Virus record (IMG/VR): IMGVR_UViG_3300033571_026852
Location: 1-29,556 of that record
Reading direction: 5' to 3' (one strand)
DNA from: a virus
DNA: 29,556 nt
Shown: in pieces, positions 7,449 through 29,198 of the stretch
Numbering within the stretch: position 1 is the stretch's first letter
How the letters are laid out: the number at the start of each line of letters is the position of its first letter
Notes under the pieces: model-generated
Databases searched by the model: none
Told to the model about the DNA's origin: nothing
The model's input: only the letters and a program-made list of their open reading frames with translations
Position numbers and translations under genes: made by a program

Positions 7449-7949
7449 ATGAAGAACATCAAGAATTTAAGGCCCACAAAAAATTCCAAATACAAACAAG
7501 GATTGTATGCTCCTTTAAATCCCTCTAAGTATATTGGAGACATCAACAATATAATCTATAGAAGTTCTTGGGAAAGGAAGTTTTGCCAATATTGTGATAC
7601 AAATCCCAACATCGTTAAATGGTCTTCTGAGCCACTTTCTGGAATAAAATATTGGTCACCAATTGACAAGAAGGAGCACACTTATTTCGTTGACTATTAC
7701 ATACAGGTCAAAAAACTTGATGGAACAATTGAAGATTGGTTGATTGAAATAAAGCCGGAAAACCAATATGATATTAACAAGAGACCAAAGGAACCTGTAG
7801 GCAATCTTACAGAAAAGAAAGTTAGAGCATACAACCAAAAGCTTCAAATCTGGATAACTAATCGTGCTAAGTTTGAAGCTGCAACAAGATTCGCTGAGTC
7901 AAGAGGATATAAATTTGGAGCTATTAACGAGAAGTTCATAATGCGATGA
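7449..7949 (+). CDS. 4: Head completion protein, T4 gp4-like nuclease fold
   Basis: A 166-residue protein matching the T4 gp4 (gp50/gp65) head completion family. The hallmark is YRSSWERKFCQYCD (37-50) followed by NIVKWSSEP (54-62), then a PD-(D/E)xK-type set: E42, D82 (YFVDYYI) and E100-x-K102 (LIEIKP). In T4 the protein finishes packaged heads so that tails can join; the nuclease-like fold suggests trimming of DNA ends. It starts 34 nt after gp55, and its end overlaps the next start (GCGATGA). Length is close to the family's usual 150-170 residues. Confidence 0.85.
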   Translation: MKNIKNLRPTKNSKYKQGLYAPLNPSKYIGDINNIIYRSSWERKFCQYCDTNPNIVKWSSEPLSGIKYWSPIDKKEHTYFVDYYIQVKKLDGTIEDWLIEIKPENQYDINKRPKEPVGNLTEKKVRAYNQKLQIWITNRAKFEAATRFAESRGYKFGAINEKFIMR

Positions 7950-8539
7950 AACCTTTCAATCAAAGATTTGAGGATTTTAGATTACAATCTTCCACTCTCA
8001 ATTCTCCAGGCGAGGATTCTTTTCTATTCTGGTTTGAAAATTACGTTAACCAAAGAAAAGAATTCAACCCTGATGAATTTCTAACGGGAAAGGTTTATTC
8101 TTTTGAGTATAATGACAAACTGGAAAAAAGTAAAAAATTCATAAATAAAAGACCCGTTGTTTTTTTTACCGGGTATTTCATAAAAGAAGAAAAAAATCTT
8201 TTCAGCGGTATTGATTTAATTCTTATGCCTCCGATGATCAGAATTCCATTCTTTACAAAAATTCAAAGTGTATTCGGTTCCCAGATCGAAACCAACATCA
8301 AAAAAGTTGAAGAGGGACAGGCAAAGAGTCAAATTCAGTTCAAAACTGACTATGAAACTCTCAACACCATATTAACTGGAATTCCCTTCAAGAATTCCTA
8401 CAGGGTGTGGGATCTTAAAAAAGTGAGAGACATTATAGAAATTCCTGTCGAAGAATGGACTAGAATAGTTTATCTTCACACTAGAGCAATTGAAGGGACC
8501 CCGATTGAAGAGATATATAAGAAAAATATGCAGTTTTAA
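7946..8539 (+). CDS. Conserved-looking unknown phage protein (197 residues)
   Basis: Begins at an ATG overlapping the gp4 stop and ends at a TAA whose last base is the first base of the portal start, so it is tightly coupled to head genes. Recognisable features are only general: GKVYSFEYND (48-57), a hydrophobic RPVVFFTGYF stretch (69-78), and GIDLILMPPMIRIPFF. This resembles a type of small protein often found among structural genes of T4-like phages, but I cannot name it. It does not resemble T4 gp53, which follows gp4 in T4. The portal promoter candidate lies inside its 3' end. Confidence 0.7.
   Translation: MKPFNQRFEDFRLQSSTLNSPGEDSFLFWFENYVNQRKEFNPDEFLTGKVYSFEYNDKLEKSKKFINKRPVVFFTGYFIKEEKNLFSGIDLILMPPMIRIPFFTKIQSVFGSQIETNIKKVEEGQAKSQIQFKTDYETLNTILTGIPFKNSYRVWDLKKVRDIIEIPVEEWTRIVYLHTRAIEGTPIEEIYKKNMQF
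8511..8521 (+). promoter_or_regulatory. Candidate late promoter (AGATATATAAG) for first portal gene
   Basis: An ATATATA core at 8513-8519, inside the 3' end of the preceding gene, ends 19 nt before the portal ATG at 8539. Spacing matches the elements before 4498, 16219 and 23783 (18, 18 and 19 nt). Being inside a coding region lowers certainty. Confidence 0.45.
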
Positions 8540-10128
8540 TGGCTGGATTTACTGACGGAAAGAAAACATTTTTTGATACAATAATCGAAAACATTAGGAA
8601 AGTAGGCAGTTTTGGAATGGCCTATGGAGATCTCGTTGTCAAAAATTCACAAGCCGTTGGGGTCACTGAAGCACAGTTTCTCAAAAAAGGAGGGATCAAA
8701 GATGAGGCTTTTCTATTTGGTTTAAAAAGATCTGATACAACAACAAAGCAATACATAGCTTATTTTGATAAAGATTTTAAGAACAAAAGACACTATGTAC
8801 AGGGTTTTGCACAAAACCCAGAGATTGAATTCATTCTTGATACAATTTGTGACGAATCGATAGTTTACGACGAGAAAAACTTTTGGGCTTATTTTTCTTT
8901 CATGCAACATGATGATGTGGATGAAGATGTTTCTTCTAAGGTTCAAAAAAGATATAAGGAAATCTATAATTTGTTTGGGTTTAACCAAGACATTCTTGCT
9001 TGGCACCTCTTCAGAAAATTTCTGGTCGAGGGAAATCTATCATTCGAAATCATATTTGACAAGAAAGGAAAAAACATCATAGGATTCAAGGAGATCGATG
9101 CTGCTTCATTAGTTCCCACAGTTGAGCAGCAACCAGATGGTTCTTATGTTGACATTTGGATTCAATACCCAGATAATCCGTCACTCACAAGAAAACTTTA
9201 TGACTCCCAAATTATCTACATAAGTTATGCAAAGGGTGGAGGAACCGCTGCTAGAATTAGTTATGTTGAGAGGCTTATTAGGTCATTTAACTTATTGAGG
9301 ATTATGGAGCACACCAGAATAATTTGGAACGTGATGAATTCCTCATTCAGGATGGCGATGACAGTTCCTATTGGGACCAAATCCCCACAGAAAGCCAAAC
9401 AAACGCTTGGTGAATTGATGAGCATTTACAAGGAGGACATAAGACTCAACACTGATAGTGGTGAATTGACTGTTGATGGACGTCCTAAGATTCAATTTTT
9501 CAAGAACTATCTCATGCCATCCTCACCGAATGGTACACCTGATATTCAGCCATTGACTGGAGCAGGAGACGCAACTGCTTTTTCTGACACGAAGGCTCTG
9601 CAATATTTTGCCAACAAACTTCGGATCGATTCTAAAGTTCCTGCCAGTAGGTTCGGTAGGGATGATTCTGGATCAGAGGGAACTATCACATTCTCTGCTG
9701 ATGGTCTAGACCAGGAGGAAATAAGATTTGGTAAGTTTATAAATCGTCTTCGCTCTATCTACCAAGAGATTCTGATGAAGCCCCTTTGGGTCCAATTTTG
9801 TTTGGACTTTCCACAAATGAAAAATGACTATCTAATCAAATCGGAGTTTGGATTAGATTACGTTAAAGAGAACATGTTCAAGGAGGCCAAAGAGATGGAG
9901 GTAATGACAGCAAGAAAAGACCAGGTCATCAAAATACTAGGCTTGAAAGATTCAGAAGGCAAGTCATATTTCAATTTGAAATTTGCCCTAGATAGATGGT
10001 TAGGGATGTCTAACCAAGATATGCTCGACAACGAGAAATTCAAAGAAGAAGCCAAAAAGAAAAAGGAAAAATCAGGAGAGGGAGAAAAGAAAGAAGGCGG
10101 TGAAAAAGAGGGAGAATTTACAATTTAA
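8539..10128 (+). CDS. 20: Portal vertex protein gp20-like, copy 1
   Basis: A 529-residue homologue of T4 gp20, which forms the dodecameric ring at the head vertex through which DNA is packaged and ejected, and which starts prohead assembly. Family signatures: AYFDKDF (74-80); EFILDTICDESIVYDEKNF (about 94-112); RIMEHTRIIWNVMNSSF; MTVPIGTKSPQKAKQTLGEL with YKEDI shortly after; and KPLWVQFCLDFPQMKND near the C-terminal third. It ends in a Lys/Glu/Gly-rich tail. A second, clearly paralogous portal gene follows after only 3 nt. Copy 1 has a middle segment with TPDIQPLTGAGDATAF that differs from copy 2. Nothing suggests decay in either copy. Confidence 0.88.
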   Translation: MAGFTDGKKTFFDTIIENIRKVGSFGMAYGDLVVKNSQAVGVTEAQFLKKGGIKDEAFLFGLKRSDTTTKQYIAYFDKDFKNKRHYVQGFAQNPEIEFILDTICDESIVYDEKNFWAYFSFMQHDDVDEDVSSKVQKRYKEIYNLFGFNQDILAWHLFRKFLVEGNLSFEIIFDKKGKNIIGFKEIDAASLVPTVEQQPDGSYVDIWIQYPDNPSLTRKLYDSQIIYISYAKGGGTAARISYVERLIRSFNLLRIMEHTRIIWNVMNSSFRMAMTVPIGTKSPQKAKQTLGELMSIYKEDIRLNTDSGELTVDGRPKIQFFKNYLMPSSPNGTPDIQPLTGAGDATAFSDTKALQYFANKLRIDSKVPASRFGRDDSGSEGTITFSADGLDQEEIRFGKFINRLRSIYQEILMKPLWVQFCLDFPQMKNDYLIKSEFGLDYVKENMFKEAKEMEVMTARKDQVIKILGLKDSEGKSYFNLKFALDRWLGMSNQDMLDNEKFKEEAKKKKEKSGEGEKKEGGEKEGEFTI

Positions 10129-10131
10129 AAG

Positions 10132-11772
10132 ATGGCAGGATTTATAGATAATTTAGGGAAAATCAACCCCAACGTTTCAAGAATCATTAAAACGATCAGT
10201 GGATTGGGATCCTTTGGAATGGAATACAAGGACATGGTGATTCAGGATTCGATGGCAATCGGTATTTCTGAAGCCAACATGAGAGAACGATTCGGATACG
10301 CTCAAGATGATGAGGATTTCATTTATAGTATTGCAGCGCAAGATTCATCTAACAGAAAATACATTGCCTATTTTGATAAGGACTACCCTGTAAGAAGGGA
10401 CTTTCTAAGAACTTTTGCGCTCAACTCCGAGATAGAATACATTCTAGATACTCTTTGTGACGAGGGGATAGTTTATGACGAGAAAAACTTCTTTTGTCAT
10501 CCCGCAACCATGAACATGGATTTGAAGGATGAGGTCATGAAAGCTCTAAGAAAGAATTTCAGAAAGCTCTACGTCCTACACAACTTCACCAACGGATTAA
10601 CAGCTTGGCAATACTTTAGACAACTTCTGGTAGAAGGATTTCTGGCATTTGAAATCATATATTCTAGTGATGGAAAGGATATAGTTGGATTCAAAGAATT
10701 GGATGCAACAAGTTTGACCCCTGCGGTTGAAAAGAAACCTGATGGTACCAGAGAGAGTGTCTGGTGGCAGTATTATGGAGAGACAACTAGACAAAGAAAA
10801 TTGTTGGATGCTCAATTGATTTACATTTCTTATGCTAAATCAAACACGGTTGCTAGAACATCTTATTGTGAAAGACTAGTTCGATCTTACAACTTGTTGA
10901 AAATCATGGAGCATTCTAGAATCATTTGGAATGTGATGAACTCCCAATATAGAATTAAGATGACTGTTCCAATAGGGAGCAAGTCTCCACAAAAGGCAAA
11001 GGAAACATTGGGAGAGCTAATGTCTGCTTATAAAGAAGATATTAAGCTAGACACAAGTTCTGGAGAACTTGCTATTAATGGTAGACCAGATTTGCAATTC
11101 TATAAGAACTATCTTTTTCCACAAGCTGGGGGAGAATCAACCAAGGTAGAGACGATCAATGCACAAGGTCCCAATCTCAACATAATGGATTCTGTAGTTT
11201 ATTTCTATAATAAACTCAGAATGGATTCTAAAATTCCCTATAATAGATTCTCAGCAAGATGGGGATCTGGTTCTGCAGCAGCTTATAAAATACCAGCCGA
11301 TGGTTCTGAAAGGGATGAAGTGCGTTTTGCCAAATTCATAACTCGTTTAAGATCTATTTTCCAAGAGATCATGGTGAAGCCACTTTGGATCCAGATGTGT
11401 TTGGACTTTCCCAATTTAAAAAATGATTCAGAGTTTAGAAGCCAAATAGGAATCAAATATGAAAGCGACAACACGTTTGGTGAATCTAGAGAAATTGAGC
11501 AACTACTCAAGCACATAGATTTTATTAATTCATTGGGTGAAATCAAAGAAACCGTCAATGAAGAGGAGGTACAATATTTTGACCAAGACTTCTTAATTGA
11601 AAGATGGTCGGGTCTTTCATATGAAGACATAATGGCTAACAAAAAATATAAGCAAACAGAGAAGGTTGAATCGGCTCCTGCTGAAGCTCCAGAAGGAGGA
11701 GCAGAGGAAGAGGCACCAGCGGCCACTCCTGAAACCGAAGCCCCTGCTGAAGGAGGAGAGGAGACAGCTTAG
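10132..11772 (+). CDS. 20: Portal vertex protein gp20-like, copy 2
   Basis: A 546-residue paralogue of the preceding portal gene, sharing all its signatures: AYFDKDY, YILDTLCDEGIVYDEKNF, KIMEHSRIIWNVMNSQY, MTVPIGSKSPQKAKETLGEL and KPLWIQMCLDFPNLKND. It differs from copy 1 in the N-terminal 60 residues, in the segment around QAGGESTKVETINAQG, and in the C-terminal tail, which is rich in Ala, Pro and Glu (APEGGAEEEAPAATPETEAP) instead of Lys/Glu. Both copies look intact and co-transcribed. Mixed rings, a division of labour, or one copy being an assembly or regulatory variant are all possible. Which copy builds the vertex cannot be told from sequence. Confidence 0.88.
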   Translation: MAGFIDNLGKINPNVSRIIKTISGLGSFGMEYKDMVIQDSMAIGISEANMRERFGYAQDDEDFIYSIAAQDSSNRKYIAYFDKDYPVRRDFLRTFALNSEIEYILDTLCDEGIVYDEKNFFCHPATMNMDLKDEVMKALRKNFRKLYVLHNFTNGLTAWQYFRQLLVEGFLAFEIIYSSDGKDIVGFKELDATSLTPAVEKKPDGTRESVWWQYYGETTRQRKLLDAQLIYISYAKSNTVARTSYCERLVRSYNLLKIMEHSRIIWNVMNSQYRIKMTVPIGSKSPQKAKETLGELMSAYKEDIKLDTSSGELAINGRPDLQFYKNYLFPQAGGESTKVETINAQGPNLNIMDSVVYFYNKLRMDSKIPYNRFSARWGSGSAAAYKIPADGSERDEVRFAKFITRLRSIFQEIMVKPLWIQMCLDFPNLKNDSEFRSQIGIKYESDNTFGESREIEQLLKHIDFINSLGEIKETVNEEEVQYFDQDFLIERWSGLSYEDIMANKKYKQTEKVESAPAEAPEGGAEEEAPAATPETEAPAEGGEETA

Positions 11773-11796: not shown

Positions 11797-11823
11797 TTGA
11801 TTCTGTAGGAATTTCTACATTTG
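11797..11823 (+). promoter_or_regulatory. Bacteroidota-type host promoter before ligase gene
   Basis: TACATTTG (11816-11823) is an exact match to the TAnnTTTG -7 element of Bacteroidota primary-sigma promoters. A TTG (11797-11799), the usual -33 element, lies 16 nt upstream, slightly closer than usual. The pair sits in a 67-nt gap and would start transcription about 10 nt before the ligase ATG. This suits an early or middle replication block read by host polymerase. Confidence 0.5.
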
Positions 11824-11839
11824 TATCAAATCAAGAAAT

Positions 11840-13162
11840 ATGAAACAGGAATTAGAGGTATTGCTTAAGGTAGAGTCAACCACTGGTGAGGGCTCACAAA
11901 AATTCAAACAAGAACTCATTAAAGGAAATCGAGGACAGGTCCTTGATTATTTTCTGAAAGTTGCACTCAACCCCTTTCTAACTACTAAACTTCACAAACT
12001 GGAGGTTATCGAACATAGCCCCTATCTTGTCGACTACGATCCTTTCGAAAAGTTCGAGGATCTTACTTCCAGACTATTCGTGGCTCCAGCTCCAAATGAC
12101 AAATTTCGTGAGGAAGCGTTCGAACTAGTCAACTGTATAGATCTTCCTTTTGAACACAGGAAGTTACTAGGTAAGATTTTGACTAAGAGATTGAACATTG
12201 GGATAGGAGCAAAACTCATCAACAAAGCGGTAGGAATTGAGCTTATTCCTGATCCAAGTCTGATGCTAGCCCAAGATGACGAAGACGAAATCAACAACTG
12301 GCCACAAATCATTTGTGAGGAAAAGTATGATGGTGTTCGTATAGCAGCTTTCGTATCAGGAAGGGAGGTTAAATTTTTTACACGAGCATTTAATGAAATC
12401 CCCTCACACTACTTAAAGAAAATTGCTGATGAGTGTTTGGAGCTTATAGAACACTCTGGTTTACAAGGTGATTGGTTTTTTGACGGAGAACTTACAGATG
12501 CAAATCGCAAAACTGTTTCAGGAAAGGTCAATCAAATGCTCAAAGGAAAACCACAAGACTCAATAGGAAATGATCTTCTATTTAATGTTTTTGATCTTGA
12601 AGATGCAGAAACACTTAAAAATGGTAAAGGAGTTATTCCTTTCTCCCTAAGAAGGGCCTCATTAGAAGCTGTTTTTAATACGTGTACGACATCTTTGGTG
12701 GTGCTGGCAGAATCTTTTATAGCTAGGGAAAAAGAACTCATATACGACTACTATAATCATATTGTAAGCCGTGGTGGTGAGGGAGTTATTTTGAAAAATC
12801 CAGATCACGTCTATGAATGTAAGAGGTCTAAGAATTGGATTAAACTCAAGGAGGTTAACGAATGTGATTTGGTTATCAAGGGTTGGTACCCAGGGGAAGG
12901 AAAAAGAGAAGGCCAAATTGGTGGATTCATTTGTGAGGATCTGTCCGGACAATTGAAAGTGAAAATAGGTTCAGGATTTACCGATGATGATTTGAAAGAA
13001 TTAAGTGAAAATCCTGACTCCCACATGAATAAAATCTGTTCTGTACAGTATAATGTAATAATAAGTGATAAGAACTCAAACTGGTCTTTGTTCTTGCCAC
13101 GATTTGTTGAAATGAGGAACGATAAAACACAACCTGACGATTTGAAAGACAAACTAAAATGA
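11840..13162 (+). CDS. 30: ATP-dependent DNA ligase
   Basis: A 440-residue ligase of the T4 gp30 type, somewhat shorter than T4's 487. It seals nicks in phage DNA during replication and repair using ATP. Motif I is EKYDGVRI, with K162 as the adenylated lysine. Later motifs are GDWFFDGELTD (III-like), GGEGVILKNP (IV) and KNWIKLKE (V), followed by an OB-fold with IKGWYPGEGKREGQIGGF. The N-terminal domain (1-150) matches the helical DNA-binding part (LNIGIGAKLINKA). It follows a Bacteroidota-type promoter and overlaps the clamp-loader gene by 4 nt (ATGA), making a replication operon that continues to 16173. Confidence 0.93.
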   Translation: MKQELEVLLKVESTTGEGSQKFKQELIKGNRGQVLDYFLKVALNPFLTTKLHKLEVIEHSPYLVDYDPFEKFEDLTSRLFVAPAPNDKFREEAFELVNCIDLPFEHRKLLGKILTKRLNIGIGAKLINKAVGIELIPDPSLMLAQDDEDEINNWPQIICEEKYDGVRIAAFVSGREVKFFTRAFNEIPSHYLKKIADECLELIEHSGLQGDWFFDGELTDANRKTVSGKVNQMLKGKPQDSIGNDLLFNVFDLEDAETLKNGKGVIPFSLRRASLEAVFNTCTTSLVVLAESFIAREKELIYDYYNHIVSRGGEGVILKNPDHVYECKRSKNWIKLKEVNECDLVIKGWYPGEGKREGQIGGFICEDLSGQLKVKIGSGFTDDDLKELSENPDSHMNKICSVQYNVIISDKNSNWSLFLPRFVEMRNDKTQPDDLKDKLK

Positions 13163-14112
13163 TACAAGAACTTTTAACAGAAAAACTAAGACCGAAAGAG
13201 CTCAGACACATGATCCTTCCAGAAAGGATCAAAAGCTCCTTTGAATCTGGCTTACAACAAAACGTTCTCCTATCTGGATCCCCAGGTTCAGGCAAAACGA
13301 GCATGGCCAAAATTCTAATCAGAAACCACCCGAGCTTGTTCATCAATGTTTCTGATGAGAGTTCCGTTGACACAATCAGAACCAAGATCCACGATTTTTG
13401 TTCAACAGTTTCCATTATGGATGGGGAAAACAAGATGAAAGTTGTGGTGCTAGATGAGTTCGATGGAGCGTCTGAACAATTTTATAAAGCTCTTAGAGGA
13501 ACAATCGAAAAGTACGCTAAGGGAACTAGATTTGTTGCCACCTGTAATTATCTTAACAAAATCCCGGAAGCCATTCGTTCAAGATTTGAACTTTATGATT
13601 TCGACCCATTGAGTCAATCAGAAGAACAAGAAATCAAAACTCAATGGAAAGAGAGAGTGGACAAGATTCTAAGTGCTTTAGGGATTGAACACGAAGAAAA
13701 GAATTTAGAGATCTTTACCAAGAAGTACTTTCCTGACATGAGGTCTGCTTTAAATACAATCCAAAGGTGGAATATTGACGGGGTAACAGATCTGACGGAA
13801 TCCAAAATAAACGAAGTTCTCTGGGATGACGAAGAACTATTCGAACTTGTGTTCTCGAAATGTGACCCAATCAAAAATTACCAATTTATAGTTGGACAAT
13901 ATTCTTCGAAAATAGATGATGCCATGTCCTCCCTTGGAACGGAGTTCATCAAATGGATTCAAGAAAAACGTCCACAGAATATAGGATTGGTTCCGGGAAT
14001 AATCATTTCAGTTGCCAAATACCAATCAGAGAGAAATCTTGTTATTGATCCGGTTCTGAGTCTACTAGCACTTGTTTACACATTACAGCAGTTAACGAAT
14101 AAGAACGCCTAG
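13159..14112 (+). CDS. 44: Sliding-clamp loader large subunit, gp44-like AAA+ ATPase
   Basis: A 317-residue AAA+ protein matching T4 gp44. Walker A is GSPGSGKT (40-47), Walker B VVVLDEFD (95-102), sensor 1 is N130 in ATCN, and the arginine finger is in RSRF (140-143), the phage version of the SRC motif. Sensor 2 lies in PDMRSALN. The complex opens the gp45 clamp and loads it onto primed DNA for polymerase. The start is coupled to the ligase stop by a 4-nt overlap. gp45 itself is not in the window. The small partner gp62 may be the gene at 15772. Confidence 0.92.
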   Translation: MIQELLTEKLRPKELRHMILPERIKSSFESGLQQNVLLSGSPGSGKTSMAKILIRNHPSLFINVSDESSVDTIRTKIHDFCSTVSIMDGENKMKVVVLDEFDGASEQFYKALRGTIEKYAKGTRFVATCNYLNKIPEAIRSRFELYDFDPLSQSEEQEIKTQWKERVDKILSALGIEHEEKNLEIFTKKYFPDMRSALNTIQRWNIDGVTDLTESKINEVLWDDEELFELVFSKCDPIKNYQFIVGQYSSKIDDAMSSLGTEFIKWIQEKRPQNIGLVPGIIISVAKYQSERNLVIDPVLSLLALVYTLQQLTNKNA

Positions 14113-14170
14113 CAAATTACCCGTTAAGTCAGAAAACAGATACAACGAGTAGTAAACTACACAATTTTAG

Positions 14171-14638
14171 ATGCAAAACAAAATTATCATAGTTGGACCG
14201 GGGGGATCAGGAAAAGACTATCTAAGGAAGAAGTTTGAAACTAAAGGTTTCAGCTTTGGTGTTCTCCATACGTCCAGACCACAAAGAAAAGAAGAGGAAG
14301 AGGGAAGAGACTATTTCTTTAGAAACAGGGATTTCTTTCTCGATAACAAGGAGATGTTTGTTCAGGTGCAGATTTTCAATGATTGGTTTTATGGGCTTTC
14401 AAGGGAAGAATTCATCATGAAAGATTTATTTATCCTTAGCCCAGCAGGTCTGACAGGTCTCTCTGATGAGGATAAAACAAACTCTTTAGTGATCTACCTT
14501 AATCCCCCTGCTGAACTGAGAAGACAAAGACTTTCTGCTAGAAGCGATGCAGACACTGTAGATAGGAGGATTTCAGCTGACGAGAGGGATTTTTCAGCAT
14601 TTTCAGAGTATGATATTATGATAACAAATATTTTTTAG
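14171..14638 (+). CDS. Guanylate-kinase-like nucleotide kinase
   Basis: A 155-residue P-loop protein: GPGGSGKD (9-16) is the ATP-binding loop, HTSRPQRKEEEEGRDYFF (33-50) is the guanylate-kinase GMP-binding signature (TSRPxRxxExxGxDYxF), and RRQRLSARSD supplies lid arginines. It is shorter than cellular Gmk (about 190-210 residues), with a compact lid and C terminus. It likely phosphorylates (d)GMP or another deoxynucleoside monophosphate for phage DNA synthesis, consistent with its place between clamp loader and 5' nuclease. A 58-nt gap precedes it. The next gene starts immediately after its stop. Substrate choice is inferred, not visible. Confidence 0.82.
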   Translation: MQNKIIIVGPGGSGKDYLRKKFETKGFSFGVLHTSRPQRKEEEEGRDYFFRNRDFFLDNKEMFVQVQIFNDWFYGLSREEFIMKDLFILSPAGLTGLSDEDKTNSLVIYLNPPAELRRQRLSARSDADTVDRRISADERDFSAFSEYDIMITNIF

Positions 14639-15772
14639 ATGATAACAGCAATAATTGATAGTAACTACATTTTCCATAAAACGTTTGGTATTTTTTCAGG
14701 TTTTGGAGCTAAGTCCCCTGGGGATGTTCTTTCCTCAGAGGGGGACAGGAACATGTTCGTTAGAAAGGTTATGACAGATCTCTGTTATTCATTAAATCAA
14801 ATTCCTGACTTGCATCGTGTTATTTTTTGCAAGGATTCTCGATCCTGGAGGAAAGATTATCAAATTACACGAAGTGTTTACAAGGAAAGCCGGGTAAAAA
14901 CAGAAGGTGTCGATTGGGGTTCTTTTTTTAAGTTGCTTGAAGAGTTGGGAGAATTTCTTTCCGAGAATGGTTATATTTATAGTACATGTGGGGGTGCGGA
15001 AGGCGACGACTTGATTTGGGCATGGTCAGAACATTTAAAAGATTCTGATGATGATATCATAGTAATTACTGGTGACAAAGATATGCACCAATTGGTTAGG
15101 GCATCGAATAGCAACTGGACTTGTATTTGGAACAGCCAGTCAAAAAACAACAAGTTTACTGTTCCACAAAATTGGAGATTAGAGGAGGAAAAGGAACCAA
15201 CAATTTTTGATGTTACCCCCTCTTCTGGATCCAACGATCACAAGCTCAAACATTTAATTTCCTCTTGCACTATTGAAGAAATAGACACCAAAGAATTTGT
15301 TTTCAAAAAGATTTTAATGGGAGATAGGAAAGACGATGTTCCTGGTGTATTCCCCCATGTCAACAAAGGGGGAAAGAATTCCAACATCGCTGAAGGTAAA
15401 GCTCAAAAGATTTGGAATTTATATGTGCAATCTCCTTGGTCAAGCTTATCAATGGAGGAACTTTGGGACAATGATGAATTCCTCACTTGGCTTGCAGGTT
15501 TGTCTTTAAGACTAATTAACCAAACGGATAACTCGGAAAATCGTGCGATCTTCAAACAGTTTTATGAGGAAAATGGAAAACTTGTTTGGCTCAACCATAG
15601 AGCGCTTCCAGAAGATATGGTTCTGAAGTTAAGAGAACATGTCTCTAAGTTAGATGCACAATCTCCTGCCAGAAATCCCCTGATTGACAAGAAGACTATG
15701 ATTGAAAAGTCACCTTGGTCCGATGACTCAAACACTCCACAAGCTTTCGATCCTTTTGCTTTTTTTAACTGA
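14639..15772 (+). CDS. rnh: 5'-3' exonuclease / RNase H of FEN family
   Basis: A 377-residue FEN-family nuclease like T4 RNase H, which removes RNA primers and short flaps in lagging-strand synthesis. Metal-binding acids are seen in order: D7 (IIDSNY), D66 (FCKDSRSWRKDY, with the basic R71/K72/Y74 set), E121/D123/D124 (GAEGDDLIW), D146/D148 (ITGDKDMHQL), and a helix-hairpin loop region GDRKDDVPG (228-236). All expected acids are present, so it should be active. It abuts the kinase gene and its stop overlaps the next start by one base (TGATG). It is somewhat longer than T4 Rnh (305), mainly in the middle and C terminus. Confidence 0.9.
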   Translation: MITAIIDSNYIFHKTFGIFSGFGAKSPGDVLSSEGDRNMFVRKVMTDLCYSLNQIPDLHRVIFCKDSRSWRKDYQITRSVYKESRVKTEGVDWGSFFKLLEELGEFLSENGYIYSTCGGAEGDDLIWAWSEHLKDSDDDIIVITGDKDMHQLVRASNSNWTCIWNSQSKNNKFTVPQNWRLEEEKEPTIFDVTPSSGSNDHKLKHLISSCTIEEIDTKEFVFKKILMGDRKDDVPGVFPHVNKGGKNSNIAEGKAQKIWNLYVQSPWSSLSMEELWDNDEFLTWLAGLSLRLINQTDNSENRAIFKQFYEENGKLVWLNHRALPEDMVLKLREHVSKLDAQSPARNPLIDKKTMIEKSPWSDDSNTPQAFDPFAFFN

Positions 15773-16173
15773 TGACAAATCCATTCGAACTGATTAAGTC
15801 TTTCTACACGTCTGATTGGCACAAAGTCAGAGATCGAGACAAAGCAAGAAATTTCTTTATGGTTAACAGATTGTGTGGAATAGCTTATCCTTTACAGGCA
15901 AATTCATTTAACCATTTGAAAATTCAGCCTGAAAAAGTCGTAGATTTTTGGAAACTTTTCATTACTCATCACAATAAAAAATCACCACAGTGGCTTTGGA
16001 CTAAAACACAAAAACCAAATCTAACCAAGGGTGATCCTAAGTATAAAGAAGATGTGATGGAATTTATTAAAACTAAGTATGGCATCTCTAATCGAGAAAT
16101 GGTCGAGATAATCGATTTTTTTCCAGAAAAGTTCAAAATTTTCTACCACGAGATAGAATCACTCCTCAGTTGA
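15772..16173 (+). CDS. Possible clamp-loader small subunit (gp62-like)
   Basis: A 133-residue protein in the replication operon, overlapping the nuclease stop by one base. FFMVNRLCGIAYPLQANSFN (28-47) and the later WLWTKTQKP resemble a small protein that accompanies gp44 and other replication genes in many T4-superfamily phages and is often taken as the clamp-loader small subunit gp62. T4 gp62 is 187 residues and very divergent, so this is a context-supported guess. There is no nucleotide-binding motif, as expected for gp62. The alternative is an unknown replication accessory protein. Confidence 0.4.
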   Translation: MTNPFELIKSFYTSDWHKVRDRDKARNFFMVNRLCGIAYPLQANSFNHLKIQPEKVVDFWKLFITHHNKKSPQWLWTKTQKPNLTKGDPKYKEDVMEFIKTKYGISNREMVEIIDFFPEKFKIFYHEIESLLS

Positions 16174-16191
16174 GGTTGGCTGTTGAAGTCC

Positions 16192-16201
16192 GGATATATA
16201 C
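16192..16201 (+). promoter_or_regulatory. Candidate late promoter GGATATATAC before fibre gene
   Basis: This 10-mer is identical to that at 4471-4480 and has the same 18-nt spacing from the ATATATA core to the ATG (16219). It lies in the 45-nt gap after the replication block, where a switch from early or middle to late transcription would be expected. Confidence 0.65.
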
Positions 16202-16218
16202 ACCAAACTTCTTCCGGA

Positions 16219-19200
16219 ATGCAGGAATTAAATCAAATCAGTATCAAACAATTATTGGCCTCGAACACCATAGGGGCTAATAACTCGATAACCAACTCCA
16301 ATTTTGCTCAGATAAATGAAGCACTAAGACTTATCAATGGTGCTTTTGGTATTTCTATCCAAGAAAGATCTATGAACTTTCCTTCGGGAAAGCTCAATGT
16401 CGGAAGTCTGAAGTCCAATTTGGTAAGACTTCCTATTCAAGGCAATACTGCTATCCAATTAAACGGAAGTAATGGAGAAGTTCTTGCAAATGGATTGAAC
16501 ATCACCAACGATGCTTTCATCGGAAGACACGCCATTGTTGGGAACGCAAATACAGGAGGAAGACTAAGATTAATTTTAGATAGAACTTATCCCAATCCTC
16601 TTTTACAGCCAGGACTTCCTGGTCAAGTCAGATACATTGGGGACGACTTTGAAGGATATACCGAATATGGAGAAGTTCAAGCAACATTTTCTTTCACGAT
16701 TGATTCAACAGGAACAACGGGACAAAGCATAAGTGTTGTTTATAATGGCACAACTGCTGGAACAGCTTCTTGGACATTCAACAATACAATCACGGCTCAG
16801 GAGCTTACTAACGCCATATTGACCAACACCACAGGTCCTTGTTTAGCTTCTTACAATCTCAATACCGTTACGATTATAGCCTTAGCAGGTGCAGGATCAT
16901 CTGCAAATGGTGACACAGTCGTACTTTCTGGTCCTTTGCCAGTCAGTCCAACTTCAGGCTCAATGGCCGGTGGTGTTGATGGTGTTGGCACTTGGGTTTC
17001 ATTCACAGGCGTAACCGGTACTGCAGGTCCGACCGGACCAACTGGTCCTGGTGGTGGTCCCGCTGGTGTCACAGGTGCAAAAGGTGCAACAGGAAATGCT
17101 GGGCCTACTGGTCCAGTGGGTGCCACTGGCGTTGGAATAACAGGTCCTACTGGATTAGGACCAACAGGACCAACAGGAATTGCAGGACCGACTGGTGAAA
17201 CTGGACCTCAAGGTCCACAAGGACCAAAAGGGACTGTAGGTAACACTGGACCAAAAGGAGATGCAGGTGTGACAGGAGCAAAAGGAGCAACTGGTGCCAG
17301 TGTAACAGGTGCCAAAGGAAGCACTGGAGTAACCGGACCAGCAGCCACGGGTCCCACAGGTCCTACTGGCACAAATTGGACATCTGGTATTGGCGCTCCA
17401 TTTAACCCAGCGAATCCGGGCGACCTTTATCTAGATGGTCAAACTGGTAATGTGTTTGTTTATTCGTCAGGTGTTTGGAATCTCTCTTACAATTTAAAGG
17501 GATTGACAGGCACAACTGGGGCAACTGGTGATGGCGTTACAGGAGCAACAGGAACCAATGGAACAACCGGGGCCACAGGCCCAACTGGAGCAGGATCAAC
17601 AGGACCAACTGGACCAGTAGGACCTACCGGAGCAGCAGGATCTATTGGCACGATGCCTTATTTAGATCTTTCTAATAATTCTATCTCACAAAGCATATCT
17701 TCCGGTGGTAATTTACCGGTGAAGTTCGATACCACTAATTTAATTGATTCTTTATTCTTCGCAACTGGAGATTATGTCCCTTCTGGAATCACAGGCACTT
17801 ACTTCGAAACTTTAGTTGCTGGAAAATATTTTGTGAGCTATAAAGTTGGATTAGATAACACAGATGCGAACGCTTCCTCTCTAATTACTACAAGATTGAT
17901 GAGAAGTGTTTCTGCTCCAGTAGAGGTTGCAAATCTGAGAGCATTCAAAACTATCGAGAATGTAGCAGGGTCCGAAGCCCCTTTCGAAACTGTTATAGTG
18001 ACTGGAATTATTGATTCCGCTGCAAACGACAAGTATTGGGTAAAAGTTGAATATGATGCAGGTGGTGTAGGAACTGTAAATGTAACATTAGGAGACACTG
18101 GTATTTCAGTACTTTCACTTTTAGGGCAAATGGGACCTACTGGCCAATCCGGCATCACTGGTCCTACTGGACCTGGGGGAGGTCCGGCAGGACCTGCCGG
18201 ACCAACAGGAGCAGCGGGTGAAACTGGTCCAACTGGTTCTGCTGGAGCCACTGGTCCAACTGGAGGTGGGGCAACAGGACCAACAGGAGCAGCTGGTGCC
18301 ACTGGACCAACAGGATCGGTCTCTACAGTGTCTGTGAGTTATGCAACTTTTTATGCAGCTCTGACAGGAGGAACTTTGACCCCTGGGGCTTTGTATTTGA
18401 TCAATGACTTCGCCACCACTCATTACATTTTGGAGTGTGCCTCTCCCACAACCAACACAGGAACAACCGAACCAATTTATGTGCTTGCAACAAGTGCAAC
18501 TACAATTGATAAAAGAGTTATTTCTAGCATCTATCCTCAAGATTTGATCTATTGGGACCCTGATCCAGCTAGTTTTTACAACGATGAAGCCTTCACAACT
18601 GCAGCAGCTCCTACTACAATCATTTCAGGATTCAAGGGGGGAATTACTCATCGCAAAGACACCACTAGAAATATAGAGGCTTACTATGATTGGAGAGCAT
18701 TCGTTTTCAGAAGGTGGAGATTGGATTCTGCGATTTACACTGCTACTTGGACAAGTTTGGTTTCTTATTCAGTTGGAGCTATAGTGACAGCCGGTTCAAC
18801 ACTTGATTATTTCTTGTGTCTAATCGCAGATCCCAGCTCTAGTTTGAATCCTTCTGCGGGATCCAACGGAAGGTGGATCAAGATATTCGAGGCCGGTGCC
18901 GAGTACGTGTTTGCTCAACCATATAACCACGTAATCAACTTGCCAGACGGCACAACGTTTACTGTGCAAGTAGACACTTCTGACTTTAATGATTATAAAT
19001 CCGTTGATGTGACCGAATTCGACGATATAACGAACATTTCAATTGCTACATTGGCTGTCCCCCAGTCAAAAACGTCGACATGGACATCCACCCCTGTCTA
19101 CTCATCAAAGATACCAAACAACATCATAGTTGGGGAGGCAACAGCAGGAAAGAAAGTAACTGATGTATCCTTTGATGGACATTCCAACGTGAATACACTC

Positions 19201-19728
19201 ATACTAGGCTCGGCTACGACTGCTTTATCAGGAGCTAGGTTTCAGTCCTCTTATTTCAACATATTTACACAAACAATACCAAGTGGCTCCACAATCACAA
19301 GTTCTGACTTCAAGTTTTTGTTTCAGGTTATTTTAGTTGGAACAATAAATTATTCTAAAATAATGAATTTCCAGGAAGCTATCATACAAGGATCTTTGTC
19401 GAATACGCATATTACAGCTTGTGAATCGATCACCTCATCGCGAAACATTCTTGGAAGTAATTTGACACGAATATCTGGGTCTTACCTTTACTCCAGAGTG
19501 GAATATTCCGATATTATGGATTTCAGTAACTGTTACTTAGGAAAGAAGTCAACAGCGACAATATTTCAGTTTACAGATTTGTATAGTGTCGATGGGGAGG
19601 ATTTCGAGACATCCACTTACATTTATTCAGCAAGTTATGCCAAGAAAGTCATGGGTACTACTGGAGCTTCTTATGTTCTTTACATAGATAACAATGGAAC
19701 TGTTCAAACAGATTTGACTACAAATTAA
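16219..19728 (+). CDS. Collagen-like phage fibre / receptor-binding protein
   Basis: A 1169-residue structural protein. Residues 1-150 look like an attachment region ([19 protein letters not shown]...). Three Gly-X-Y collagen-like stretches follow (about 265-384, 429-478 and 638-699). Between the second and third is a C1q/TNF-like beta sandwich (about 479-634, with [13 protein letters not shown] and [10 protein letters not shown]) like those that cap collagen stalks in spore and phage fibres. After the third comes the module shared with the fibre gene at 1-3135 (YLINDF, then GGITHRKD and [11 protein letters not shown]), a CBM5/12-like segment (about 839-888, [14 protein letters not shown]), and a beta-rich C terminus. 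I chose the ATG at 16219 over TTG 16183 because the latter would contain the promoter element. Likely role: binding host surface polymers. Confidence 0.82.
17011..17370 (+). repeat. Collagen-like Gly-X-Y stretch 1 of fibre gene
   Basis: About 120 residues of Gly-X-Y triplets, mostly GPT, GAT, GAK and GPQ, coded by GC-richer sequence than the surroundings. A short break, [20 protein letters not shown], follows before stretch 2. Confidence 0.85.
17503..17652 (+). repeat. Collagen-like Gly-X-Y stretch 2 of fibre gene
   Basis: About 50 residues of Gly-X-Y triplets ([12 protein letters not shown]) leading directly into the C1q/TNF-like domain. Confidence 0.85.
18130..18315 (+). repeat. Collagen-like Gly-X-Y stretch 3 of fibre gene
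   Basis: About 60 residues of Gly-X-Y triplets following the TNF-like domain and leading into the module shared with the fibre gene at the left edge. Confidence 0.85.
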
Positions 19729-21159: not shown

Positions 21160-21969
21160 ATGTCAATAGAAAGAAAAAGAAATCTTTTAAGATTTAGTAG
21201 AGAAAAATCAAGAAATCCTGATTTTACAGGTTATCCTCCGGTACAAAAGAAGGAGCAAGAAAGACTTTATCTTAACAACCAAGATCACAAAACTGTGAGT
21301 ATACCCACTTCAATAAGAAGAATCAAAACCAGCCCTAAAAGTCAACATATTGGAAACAATTTATTTCCTGACTACATTGGGAAATATGAAGGTAAATCTT
21401 TCATAGTAGCAGGCTGTGGATCATCTCTAAACTTGTTTTCAGACACAGACTTAAGTAAATACTACATCGTTGGTGTAAACGACATCCAGAGAATTCTTAC
21501 ACCTGATTTTTTAGTTGTTGTGAACGAGATTCGTACCTTCATGAGAGGTCGATGGGAATGGGTAAGAGATTCGTTAAGTCCTGTTATCTTTTCACATTTA
21601 GATGACCCAGGTCCAATCGTGAGAAAGGATCATTTGGTCAAATTGAAGATAGGACAAAGAAATCAAGCTAGATTGGATCAATTTCAGGAAGTTGACCACA
21701 CGATGAATTCTCCCTATATGGCAGCAATAATAGCTTACCAATTAGGGGCAAAGAAGATAGGAATAGTTGGGGTTGATTTTACGAACCATCATTTCTTTCA
21801 AGAAACCGGGTCGCATAAGTTATCAAAACACATCAAATCTATAGATGCTGAATTTATGGCTTTGAGAAGTGCCCTAGAAAAGAAAGGTGTGAAAGTTGCA
21901 AATCTCTCGCCTATCAGCCAGTTGGAGGCTTGGCCCAAAATGACCCTGGCAGAATTCGACAATCTATAA
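21160..21969 (+). CDS. DUF115-like Rossmann-fold protein (possible glycosyltransferase relative)
   Basis: A 269-residue protein. After a basic N-terminal region (1-75) comes KSFIVAGCGSSLNLF (79-93), IVGVNDI (103-109), PDFLVVVNE (115-123), NSPYMAAIIAYQLGAKKIGI (183-202) and VGVDFT (203-208). This order fits the DUF115 / MptE-like family, whose members include enzymes related to sialyltransferases and flagellin glycosyltransferases. In a phage it might modify a sugar on the virion, the DNA or the host surface, but the reaction cannot be told. The 33-nt gap downstream holds a TATAAAA stretch next to the following ATG. Confidence 0.55.
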   Translation: MSIERKRNLLRFSREKSRNPDFTGYPPVQKKEQERLYLNNQDHKTVSIPTSIRRIKTSPKSQHIGNNLFPDYIGKYEGKSFIVAGCGSSLNLFSDTDLSKYYIVGVNDIQRILTPDFLVVVNEIRTFMRGRWEWVRDSLSPVIFSHLDDPGPIVRKDHLVKLKIGQRNQARLDQFQEVDHTMNSPYMAAIIAYQLGAKKIGIVGVDFTNHHFFQETGSHKLSKHIKSIDAEFMALRSALEKKGVKVANLSPISQLEAWPKMTLAEFDNL

Positions 21970-27104: not shown

Positions 27105-29198
27105 ATGGAAAACAATAAAAACCTGGACTATGTCCTGATTTTGGAGAAATCCTCGAAGAATCTTTCTAGTATGAAGAAAGATGGAGAGTATTTTCTGGAA
27201 GGAGTAGCGGCTGTATTTGGAGTCGAAAATTCTAATCATAGAATTTACGAAGAGAAAGAATACTTGCCTCACTTGGACTATTTGAAGAAGAAGATTGACC
27301 AGAATAGACTTGTTGGTGAATTAGATCATCCGAAGGAATTTGATGTTTCTTTAAAAAATATTTCTCACATCATCATAGACTTAGAGTATGACAAGAGCAA
27401 TCGTCTGGTGAAAATCAAAGTTAAGTTGTTGGATACTCCAGCAGGAAGAATAGCTAAAAGTCTTGTTGATGCTGGTATTCCGATCTCTATTTCTTCGAGA
27501 GCAGCTGGAAATGTAAACAATGATAAGAAGGTGGAGATTAAAAAGATTTTCACGTATGATCTTGTGGCAGATCCTGGATTCGAAAATGCACAATTAGAAA
27601 GAGTTCAAGAGAGTTTATATGAGAGTTTAGGATTCGAATCTTTCAATGTCGAGCAAAAAAATTCAATAATTTCCACTCTTACTAATATAAATGAAAGCTT
27701 TGGATTGAGAAAAAATTCTAATGTGCAGATATATAGAATCAAAGACTCTGAGAAAATATCCAGACTTTTAAAAGAAAACATAACAAATAATTCTAAGAAT
27801 ATGGACAATAACTTTGTCACTGCAGAAGAACTAAACGAATATTCTCTCATCCTTAAGAAGGAAATGAATTCTTTAAGAAACGAGATAAAATCAGCTAATA
27901 GAGGATCTGGTGGAAGCTCTGATTTAGAGGAAAGAGTTAAAAGGCTAGAGAAATATTCTGAGTATTTGGCTGAAAATTTGGAGTCTTCAATTAAGTATGG
28001 TGATTATTTAGCTGAGAACTTGGAAGGATCAATTTCTTACAATAAATATCTAGCTGAAAATCTGGACAAGGCTATTTCATACGCTAAATATCTTGCAGAA
28101 CATGTTGATGGGAATATCTCTTATTCCGAGTATATTGCAGAAAACCTAGATAACAATATTGCTTACAGTAAATATTTGGCTGAAAACTTGGATAAGAACA
28201 TTTCTTATTCCGAATACTTGGCTGAAAATCTAGACAAGAATATCTCTTACTCTGAATATCTTGCTGAGAACTTAGATCAGAACATTTCTTATTCTGAGTA
28301 TCTTGCAGAGAATCTTGACAGAAACATTTCTTATTCGGAATACTTGGCTGAAAATCTCGACAAGAACATTTCTTACTCTGAATATCTAGCTGAGAATTTA
28401 GACAGAAACATTTCTTACTCTGATTATCTAGCTGAGAACTTGGATAAGAACATCTCTTACTCAGATTACTTGGGAGAAAATCTAAATGGTAATATTAACT
28501 ATTCTGAATATCTTGCTGAGAAAGTTAAATCTGGAATTGAATACACTCAATATTTAGCTGAGTCAATTAACAACAGAGGAGGAATCGCTCAGGATAATCT
28601 CGGGAAACAAGTTAACGAATCAGTTTCTACAGGAAAGAGAACTTCAGGATTCTCAGGTGATTACACTTCATTATCAAGCAAAGTTGACCAATTAATTGAG
28701 TCACTAAATACAAATAAAACCAACGAGCTCATTAGTGAGAACAAATATTCTTTCTTGAAGCTAGTTGATGACAGAACTAAGAAAGGTTTCCTTTCTTTGA
28801 ACGAGGCCGAAAAACAAAAGGTCGTGAAAGCTCTAAACGAGTCGAACTACAATTCGGGTACGGATGTAGCTCAAATTATGGGGTCTGCTTTAACTGAACA
28901 AGCTAAATCAGGTGAAAAATTCCTAGACATGATGCCAGAAGATTTGGTACCTGTTTGGGCGTCTCTGAATGAATCACAGAAAGGGTCTATTATCGCCCAG
29001 AGTAAGTTTTATCATTTAGATACTCCTTATCAGATCAACCACTTCTGGAGAACCCGTCCAGGTTTCAATACACCTGCAGCTAGCTTAGAGCAGTTGAACG
29101 AGTCCCAGACAATCCAACCTGATGCGGTAAGAACAGGGGTAAGTAATGCTTATCTCCAAAACATCGCAGCAGAATTGGATAAAAGATTCAAAAAATAA
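27105..29198 (+). CDS. 21: Prohead protease fused to repeat-bearing scaffold-like protein (gp21-gp22-like)
   Basis: A 697-residue protein. Residues 1-170 are a T4 gp21-type prohead protease: EGVAAVFGVENSNHRIY, GELDHP with catalytic His75, ISISSR with Ser130 or Ser131 as nucleophile, and YDLVADPGFENAQL. T4 gp21 is a separate protein of about 212 residues. Here the chain continues into a helical region: residues 284-493 are fifteen 14-residue repeats (YSEYLAENLDKNIS), followed by a C-terminal domain ending near HFWRTRPGF, as expected for a scaffold core protein like gp22, whose gene normally lies between gp21 and gp23. No separate gp22 gene exists here. Many [LI]xE/[SNA] triplets, including LAE/N in most repeats and INE/S and LNE/S, fit the protease's own cleavage rule. 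An in-frame ATG at 27801 could give scaffold alone. Confidence 0.85.
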   Translation: MENNKNLDYVLILEKSSKNLSSMKKDGEYFLEGVAAVFGVENSNHRIYEEKEYLPHLDYLKKKIDQNRLVGELDHPKEFDVSLKNISHIIIDLEYDKSNRLVKIKVKLLDTPAGRIAKSLVDAGIPISISSRAAGNVNNDKKVEIKKIFTYDLVADPGFENAQLERVQESLYESLGFESFNVEQKNSIISTLTNINESFGLRKNSNVQIYRIKDSEKISRLLKENITNNSKNMDNNFVTAEELNEYSLILKKEMNSLRNEIKSANRGSGGSSDLEERVKRLEKYSEYLAENLESSIKYGDYLAENLEGSISYNKYLAENLDKAISYAKYLAEHVDGNISYSEYIAENLDNNIAYSKYLAENLDKNISYSEYLAENLDKNISYSEYLAENLDQNISYSEYLAENLDRNISYSEYLAENLDKNISYSEYLAENLDRNISYSDYLAENLDKNISYSDYLGENLNGNINYSEYLAEKVKSGIEYTQYLAESINNRGGIAQDNLGKQVNESVSTGKRTSGFSGDYTSLSSKVDQLIESLNTNKTNELISENKYSFLKLVDDRTKKGFLSLNEAEKQKVVKALNESNYNSGTDVAQIMGSALTEQAKSGEKFLDMMPEDLVPVWASLNESQKGSIIAQSKFYHLDTPYQINHFWRTRPGFNTPAASLEQLNESQTIQPDAVRTGVSNAYLQNIAAELDKRFKK
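27954..28583 (+). repeat. Fifteen 42-bp repeats coding 14-residue YSEYLAENLDxNIS units
   Basis: The array is exactly in register: unit 1 starts at 27954 and unit 15 at 28542. Central units 6-12 are nearly identical in protein but vary in codons, and the outer units are more diverged, as in arrays that grow and shrink from the middle. Fourteen residues equal two heptads, so a continuous helix or coiled coil is likely. Thirteen of fifteen units carry Leu-Ala-Glu; unit 5 has Ile-Ala-Glu and unit 13 Leu-Gly-Glu. Confidence 0.95.

Follow-up and report, generated by a model that had tools for sequence, protein, structure and literature searches.

Why would a phage keep two portal genes? We analyzed a stretch of viral DNA of 29,556 nucleotides (IMG/VR record IMGVR_UViG_3300033571_026852, positions 1 to 29,556; hereafter the window) in which this question arises. 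To our knowledge, the portals that have been solved are rings of one protein. As described in the original prediction, positions 8539-11772 contain two intact tandem open reading frames (ORFs), and the coordinates and the 3-nt gap between them are exactly as claimed; both start with ATG:

Positions 8539 to 10128, plus strand: portal A, the upstream paralog (529 aa; PF07230, E = 2e-59; phrog_213; A clade SH-aLRT 98).
Positions 10132 to 11772, plus strand: portal B, the downstream paralog (546 aa; PF07230, E = 6e-59; phrog_213; B clade SH-aLRT 97), with an AlphaFold model that resembles T4 gp20.

Both proteins match the Portal_T4 family (PF07230) over their full length, scoring 201.9 bits for A and 200.4 bits for B against a curated cut-off of 22.9, and a profile of A, B and their relatives matched T4 gp20 (PDB 3JA7, 6UZC, and 9LU6) at ~1e-26. 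For B, an AlphaFold model with a mean pLDDT of 70 aligned with T4 gp20 chains at Z scores of 21-23, with the next family at 16.4; 9MKB is a further PDB entry for the T4 portal. The wing-stem-clip-crown fold was computed for the B model, and A was judged by its 49% identity to B (69% similarity over 515 aa). Wing, stem, clip, and tunnel parts are retained in both proteins, and wing, stem, clip, tunnel loop, and crown follow one another in the same order as in T4. Together, the ORF positions, the PF07230 and phrog_213 matches, the gp20 profile match, and the fold of the B model establish that the window holds two intact T4-type portal genes, with A and B as unexceptional gp20 family members. All three motifs that had been quoted as gp20 signatures (CDExIVYDEKNF, IIWNVMNS, and KSPQKAK) occur in both proteins, but they characterize this phage group and not gp20 generally, since the aligned clip tip reads NMPARKAAEH in T4 and GGKSKTRAKQS in single-portal relatives. 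The two proteins had also been described as differing at the N terminus, in one internal segment, and in the tail; the differences extend beyond these three places, as half of all residues differ.

The genes surrounding the pair include neighbors expected of a T4-type head cluster, with gp4 and gp2 homologs directly upstream and a head protease elsewhere in the window:

Positions 7449 to 7949, plus strand: gp4-like head-closure gene (phrog_218, 3e-43), upstream of the portals and in the same gene run.
Positions 7946 to 8539, plus strand: gp2-like DNA end protector (phrog_429, 6e-11), which overlaps the start of A by 1 nt.
Positions 11816 to 11823, plus strand: TACATTTG box (Bacteroidota-type -7 element), located past B and ahead of the ligase gene and found at the same place in many relatives.
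Positions 27105 to 29198: head maturation protease, distant downstream of the portals.

On the 3′ side, the portals are followed by genes for a DNA ligase, a gp44-like clamp loader, a guanylate kinase, an exonuclease, a tail fiber, and a glycosyltransferase-like protein, and finally by the protease. The ligase, clamp loader, guanylate kinase, and exonuclease genes (11840-16173) thus split the head cluster, with the portals on one side and the protease far away on the other. The large tail-fiber gene (16183-19728) matches several tail-fiber and collagen-like tail families, and an ORF at 21160-21969 weakly matches an alpha-2,3-sialyltransferase (phrog_4603), making it a possible glycosyltransferase for phage or host surfaces. 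In many relatives, the TACATTTG box sits within TTTCTACATTTGY, ahead of the ligase gene. As this box is conserved in position and resembles the Bacteroidota -7 promoter element, the ligase gene probably opens its own transcription unit there. Within the window, neither TACATTTG as a bare pattern nor the Bacteroidota TTTG-TAnnTTTG promoter patterns were more frequent than expected by chance; sigma-70 consensus sites numbered 21 where 14 were expected, which is weak evidence.

The closest relatives in GenBank are the single portals of Mahaphages (LR756500, 462 kb; LR756501-04 and LR745206, 634-735 kb) and of Lak phages, and the phage group of the window belongs near the Mahaphage clade. The largest members of this clade of huge phages are predicted to infect Bacteroidetes (PMC7162821). 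In a bacterial genome collection, the one relative was a single-portal contig binned as Bacteroidetes; searching GenBank phages for near matches in DNA, and plasmids for matches in protein, returned nothing. The Mahaphages have one full-length portal, which lacks the channel-loop insertion described below and carries an acidic tunnel loop. The LR756500 portal is 42-45% identical to the window portals, and the two genes upstream of it (166 and 212 aa) match the gp4-like and gp2-like genes of the window in size. Downstream of it, ORFs of 632 and 550 aa occupy the places of the protease and the major capsid protein, and the capsid match was confirmed. Thus, LR756500 has its capsid gene a short distance past the portal, where the window has a ligase gene instead. 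From the gene order around the one portal of LR756500, the duplication most likely occurred at the ancestral portal position.

T4-like phages had been said to have one portal as a rule, and this holds: among GenBank phage records with a detectable T4-type portal, tblastn with A hit 1277 places in 1275 records and B hit 2046 places in 2044. The two-place records among those listed were two copies of a single 735-kb genome, in which the second hit covers a fragment of 62 aa; we rejected it as a second portal. This fragment (LR756501.1, 15166-15351, minus strand) resembles the C-terminal part of gp20 and lies far from the full portal. The window breaks the rule, as do all nine long contigs with the pair (69-219 kb), for which whole-record profile searches found exactly two full-length portals each. 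All 16 single-type records, which include the 462-735 kb Mahaphage genomes and Lak, contained one full-length portal; two of the 16 seem to duplicate genomes already in the set. The search of related genomes that had been proposed showed that the pair recurs in dozens of independent contigs. Scans of IMG/VR yielded scores of contigs, drawn from many samples, that carry a relative of A, of B, or of the two together, and 42 distinct protein pairs were adjacent and open. Both genes were complete at 95 loci (45 distinct at the DNA level), several of which are one and the same contig; the order was always A then B, with the B start 2-11 nt past the end of A, and the genes were adjacent in every relative with enough flanking sequence.

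We examined the history of the pair in a maximum-likelihood tree that combined 23 pairs with 36 single portals. Each of the three sets, A, B, and singles, fell on one side of a branch (SH-aLRT 98, 97, and 99, respectively); A and B were reciprocally monophyletic, and their subtrees mirrored each other in branching order, with similar branch lengths. Joining the A and B of the deepest lineage (L081/L082) to each other, as a separate duplication in that lineage would require, was rejected by the AU test (p = 5e-7), which rules out an independent duplication there. These data show that one tandem duplication preceded the deepest split and was followed by strict joint retention. Comparing the window with its relatives, dN was 0.05-0.12 for both copies. 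The median dN/dS was 0.040 for A and for B, computable in 23 of 78 comparisons because dS was mostly saturated. Purifying selection therefore acts strongly, and to the same degree, on A and B (dN/dS about 0.04, with dS near saturation).

A second copy in decay among related phages would have spoken against the original prediction; we looked for such cases and found none except for one nonsense codon in a short contig. All complete copies in the relatives were open apart from this A gene (L026, 1542-3160): a single TAG interrupts its frame, which is open elsewhere, and this may be a sequencing error or a true break, which would be rare. All other copies that seemed incomplete were cut by contig ends. 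A single old duplication, no decay, dN/dS about 0.04 for A and for B, and the complementary fixed differences described below strongly support the view that two distinct portals have been kept over the long term. We found no earlier description of paralogous portals in one phage in openly licensed papers. Within that literature the lasting pair appears to be a new variant of the known gp20 family.

What distinguishes the two proteins? We mapped the A/B differences on the domains of T4 gp20 (PMC4493910). The fixed differences include parts that line the DNA channel, and the loop and tail counts given here are descriptive, as related sequences were counted separately:

Positions 9568 to 9573, plus strand: two-residue insertion (D344-A345) in the channel loop of A, present in 41 of 43 distinct A proteins, 0 of 44 B proteins, and 0 of 124 single portals.
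Positions 9655 to 9711, plus strand: acidic tunnel loop of A, GRDDSGSEGTITFSADGLD (mean net charge -3.7 in A and -3.3 in single portals).
Positions 9712 to 9714, plus strand: codon for Q392 of A, in place of the arginine after the tunnel loop (T4 R398).
Positions 11251 to 11310, plus strand: tunnel loop of B, near neutral with a basic tip, SARWGSGSAAAYKIPADGSE (mean net charge -0.16 in 44 B proteins).

The arginine after the tunnel loop is present in all B proteins (44/44) and all single portals (124/124) and in none of the 43 A proteins. The net charge of the tunnel loop was higher in B than in A in every pair (42/42). At the site of T4 T349, whose SPP1 counterpart affects packaging, all A proteins have proline, while threonine is found in 42 of 44 B proteins and 59 of 124 single portals. 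Overall, A departs from the single portals at 10 conserved sites and B at three. The basic residues of the T4 inner clip, R338 and K342, are missing from nearly all A and B proteins; the clip and stem parts of A and B are alike.

The tails differ as well. The ORF of A ends in a short motif that is usually lost from B:

Positions 10114 to 10125, plus strand: C-terminal EFTI motif of A, an EF[KT]L-type end found in the A protein of 34 of 41 distinct pairs.

Using an EF-x-[LIF] pattern that was chosen after the tails had been viewed, we found this end in A and its loss from B in those 34 of 41 pairs; GGGEFEF is the counterpart in one single-portal group. The two deepest pairs (L081/L082) are reversed, as B ends in SFTL and A lacks the motif, leaving one carrier per pair. 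In five of the 41 pairs, neither tail fits the pattern. In one group of relatives (L058, L059, L060, and L094), A and B both end in GGDMGTI, and these identical ends suggest conversion of the tail between copies; for the cores, the tree gave no sign of conversion of A and B toward each other. In relatives such as L166, the portal tails (10050-10125 and 11660-11769 in the window) contain collagen-like Gly-X-Y runs such as GATGAEG, which reach up to seven triplets in A and five in B. A contrast between a Lys/Glu-rich and an Ala/Pro/Glu-rich tail, also part of the original prediction, holds for this phage and a few others, but in most relatives both tails are rich in Ala/Gly/Thr/Glu; what persists at the C terminus is the EF[KT]L end of A. 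Thus, the losses are complementary: A lacks the post-loop arginine and the usual channel-loop length, while B lacks the acidic tunnel loop and usually the EFxL motif.

The T4 ring consists of 12 copies of the product of one gene (PMC4493910), whereas the window encodes two paralogs that differ in their tunnel and channel loops. With moderate confidence, we favor a model in which A and B are specialized, mutually dependent subunits that co-assemble in one heteromeric ring at a single portal vertex. The original reading, distinct jobs or a mixed ring, fits these data; the mixed ring is favored because each copy keeps an element that the other lost, and all subunits of a homomeric ring would be expected to carry such elements. 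In this model, for which we infer co-expression, co-assembly, stoichiometry, and subunit order, a single T4-type portal gene would have been duplicated once in tandem in an ancestor of the Mahaphage-related group, and both copies would have become specialized and mutually dependent. A and B would most likely be translated together from neighboring cistrons to form one heteromeric ring at a single vertex, probably a dodecamer and perhaps an alternating A6B6 one. A would provide acidic tunnel loops, a modified channel loop, and a C-terminal EFxL tail inside the head, and B would provide basic tunnel-loop tips and the canonical post-loop arginine. T4 tunnel loops probably contact the loops of neighboring subunits, and deleting them alters ring size (PMC4493910); by analogy, differently charged loops could favor A-B neighbors or alternation. 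An AlphaFold prediction for an A-B read-through fusion, used as a stand-in for the dimer with 27 paired rows, was of low confidence (mean pLDDT 47, pTM 0.35), and we gave it no weight. Counting against a mixed ring are the five of 41 pairs without the motif in either tail and the L058 group, in which both tails end alike.

The main competing idea is that A and B each form a homomeric ring of their own and that the two rings serve different stages or head classes, such that each capsid contains only A or only B. Clip and stem parts are alike in A and B, which is compatible with homomeric rings, and the differences between the two proteins could also specialize two such rings. No portal domain is missing from either protein, the clip region included, and the fixed differences could tune each ring to a different terminase or packaging state. 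However, the long pair contigs lack a second major capsid gene (those with a capsid match have one gene only, and thus no sign of two capsid types), the genes are conserved 1:1 in tandem rather than in separate operons, and A alone and B alone would each lack an element conserved in single portals. We consider separate rings unlikely. We assign a slightly lower probability to a scenario in which one paralog forms the portal vertex while the other has moved to head-assembly initiation, the internal core, or head closure. T4 offers a precedent for specialization of a duplicated structural gene in gp23 and gp24, capsid paralogs that are both kept in one virion, and the greater departure of A from the single portals (10 conserved sites, compared with three in B) fits such a move. 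In that precedent, gp24 occupies separate vertices; A and B would share one ring if the mixed-ring model is right. Against a new task for one copy, the retention of wing, stem, clip, and tunnel parts under equal constraint in both would be unexpected had one of them left the DNA channel.

That two interchangeable portals are retained for dosage or redundancy is improbable: the genes are intact, in tandem, and probably co-transcribed, but they have diverged by 51%, all 42 pairs carry clade-specific fixed differences, and their cores show no mutual conversion. Apart from the metagenomic origin of the data, nothing points to an assembly artefact or to a duplication that is recent and transient. 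The probability of this is negligible, as the pair occurs in dozens of contigs from many samples and half of its residues differ; we rejected an artefact because independent contigs carry the pair. Given the complementary losses, tandem pairing, equal constraint, and lack of a second capsid gene, division of labor within one heteromeric ring requires the fewest assumptions. A bolder version, which we regard as possible but tentative, is that the ring is obligately heteromeric and alternating (A6B6), with genome-encoded sixfold symmetry that matches the sixfold tail and a charge-complementary DNA gate made of two kinds of tunnel loop.

Symmetry mismatches at the portal vertex (12-to-5 and 12-to-6) have long been puzzling, and an A6B6 ring would itself have sixfold symmetry, as does the tail. 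If such a ring exists, its charge-complementary gate would be well matched to a genome that is very large and densely packed. With two proteins in a natural portal, the roles of single subunits and of their tunnel loops could also be tested genetically; a homomeric ring offers no such handle. The portal pair is a clean trait, visible in sequence, that marks one branch of the huge phages. While, as far as is known, other viruses build this ring from a single protein, these very large phages may use two.
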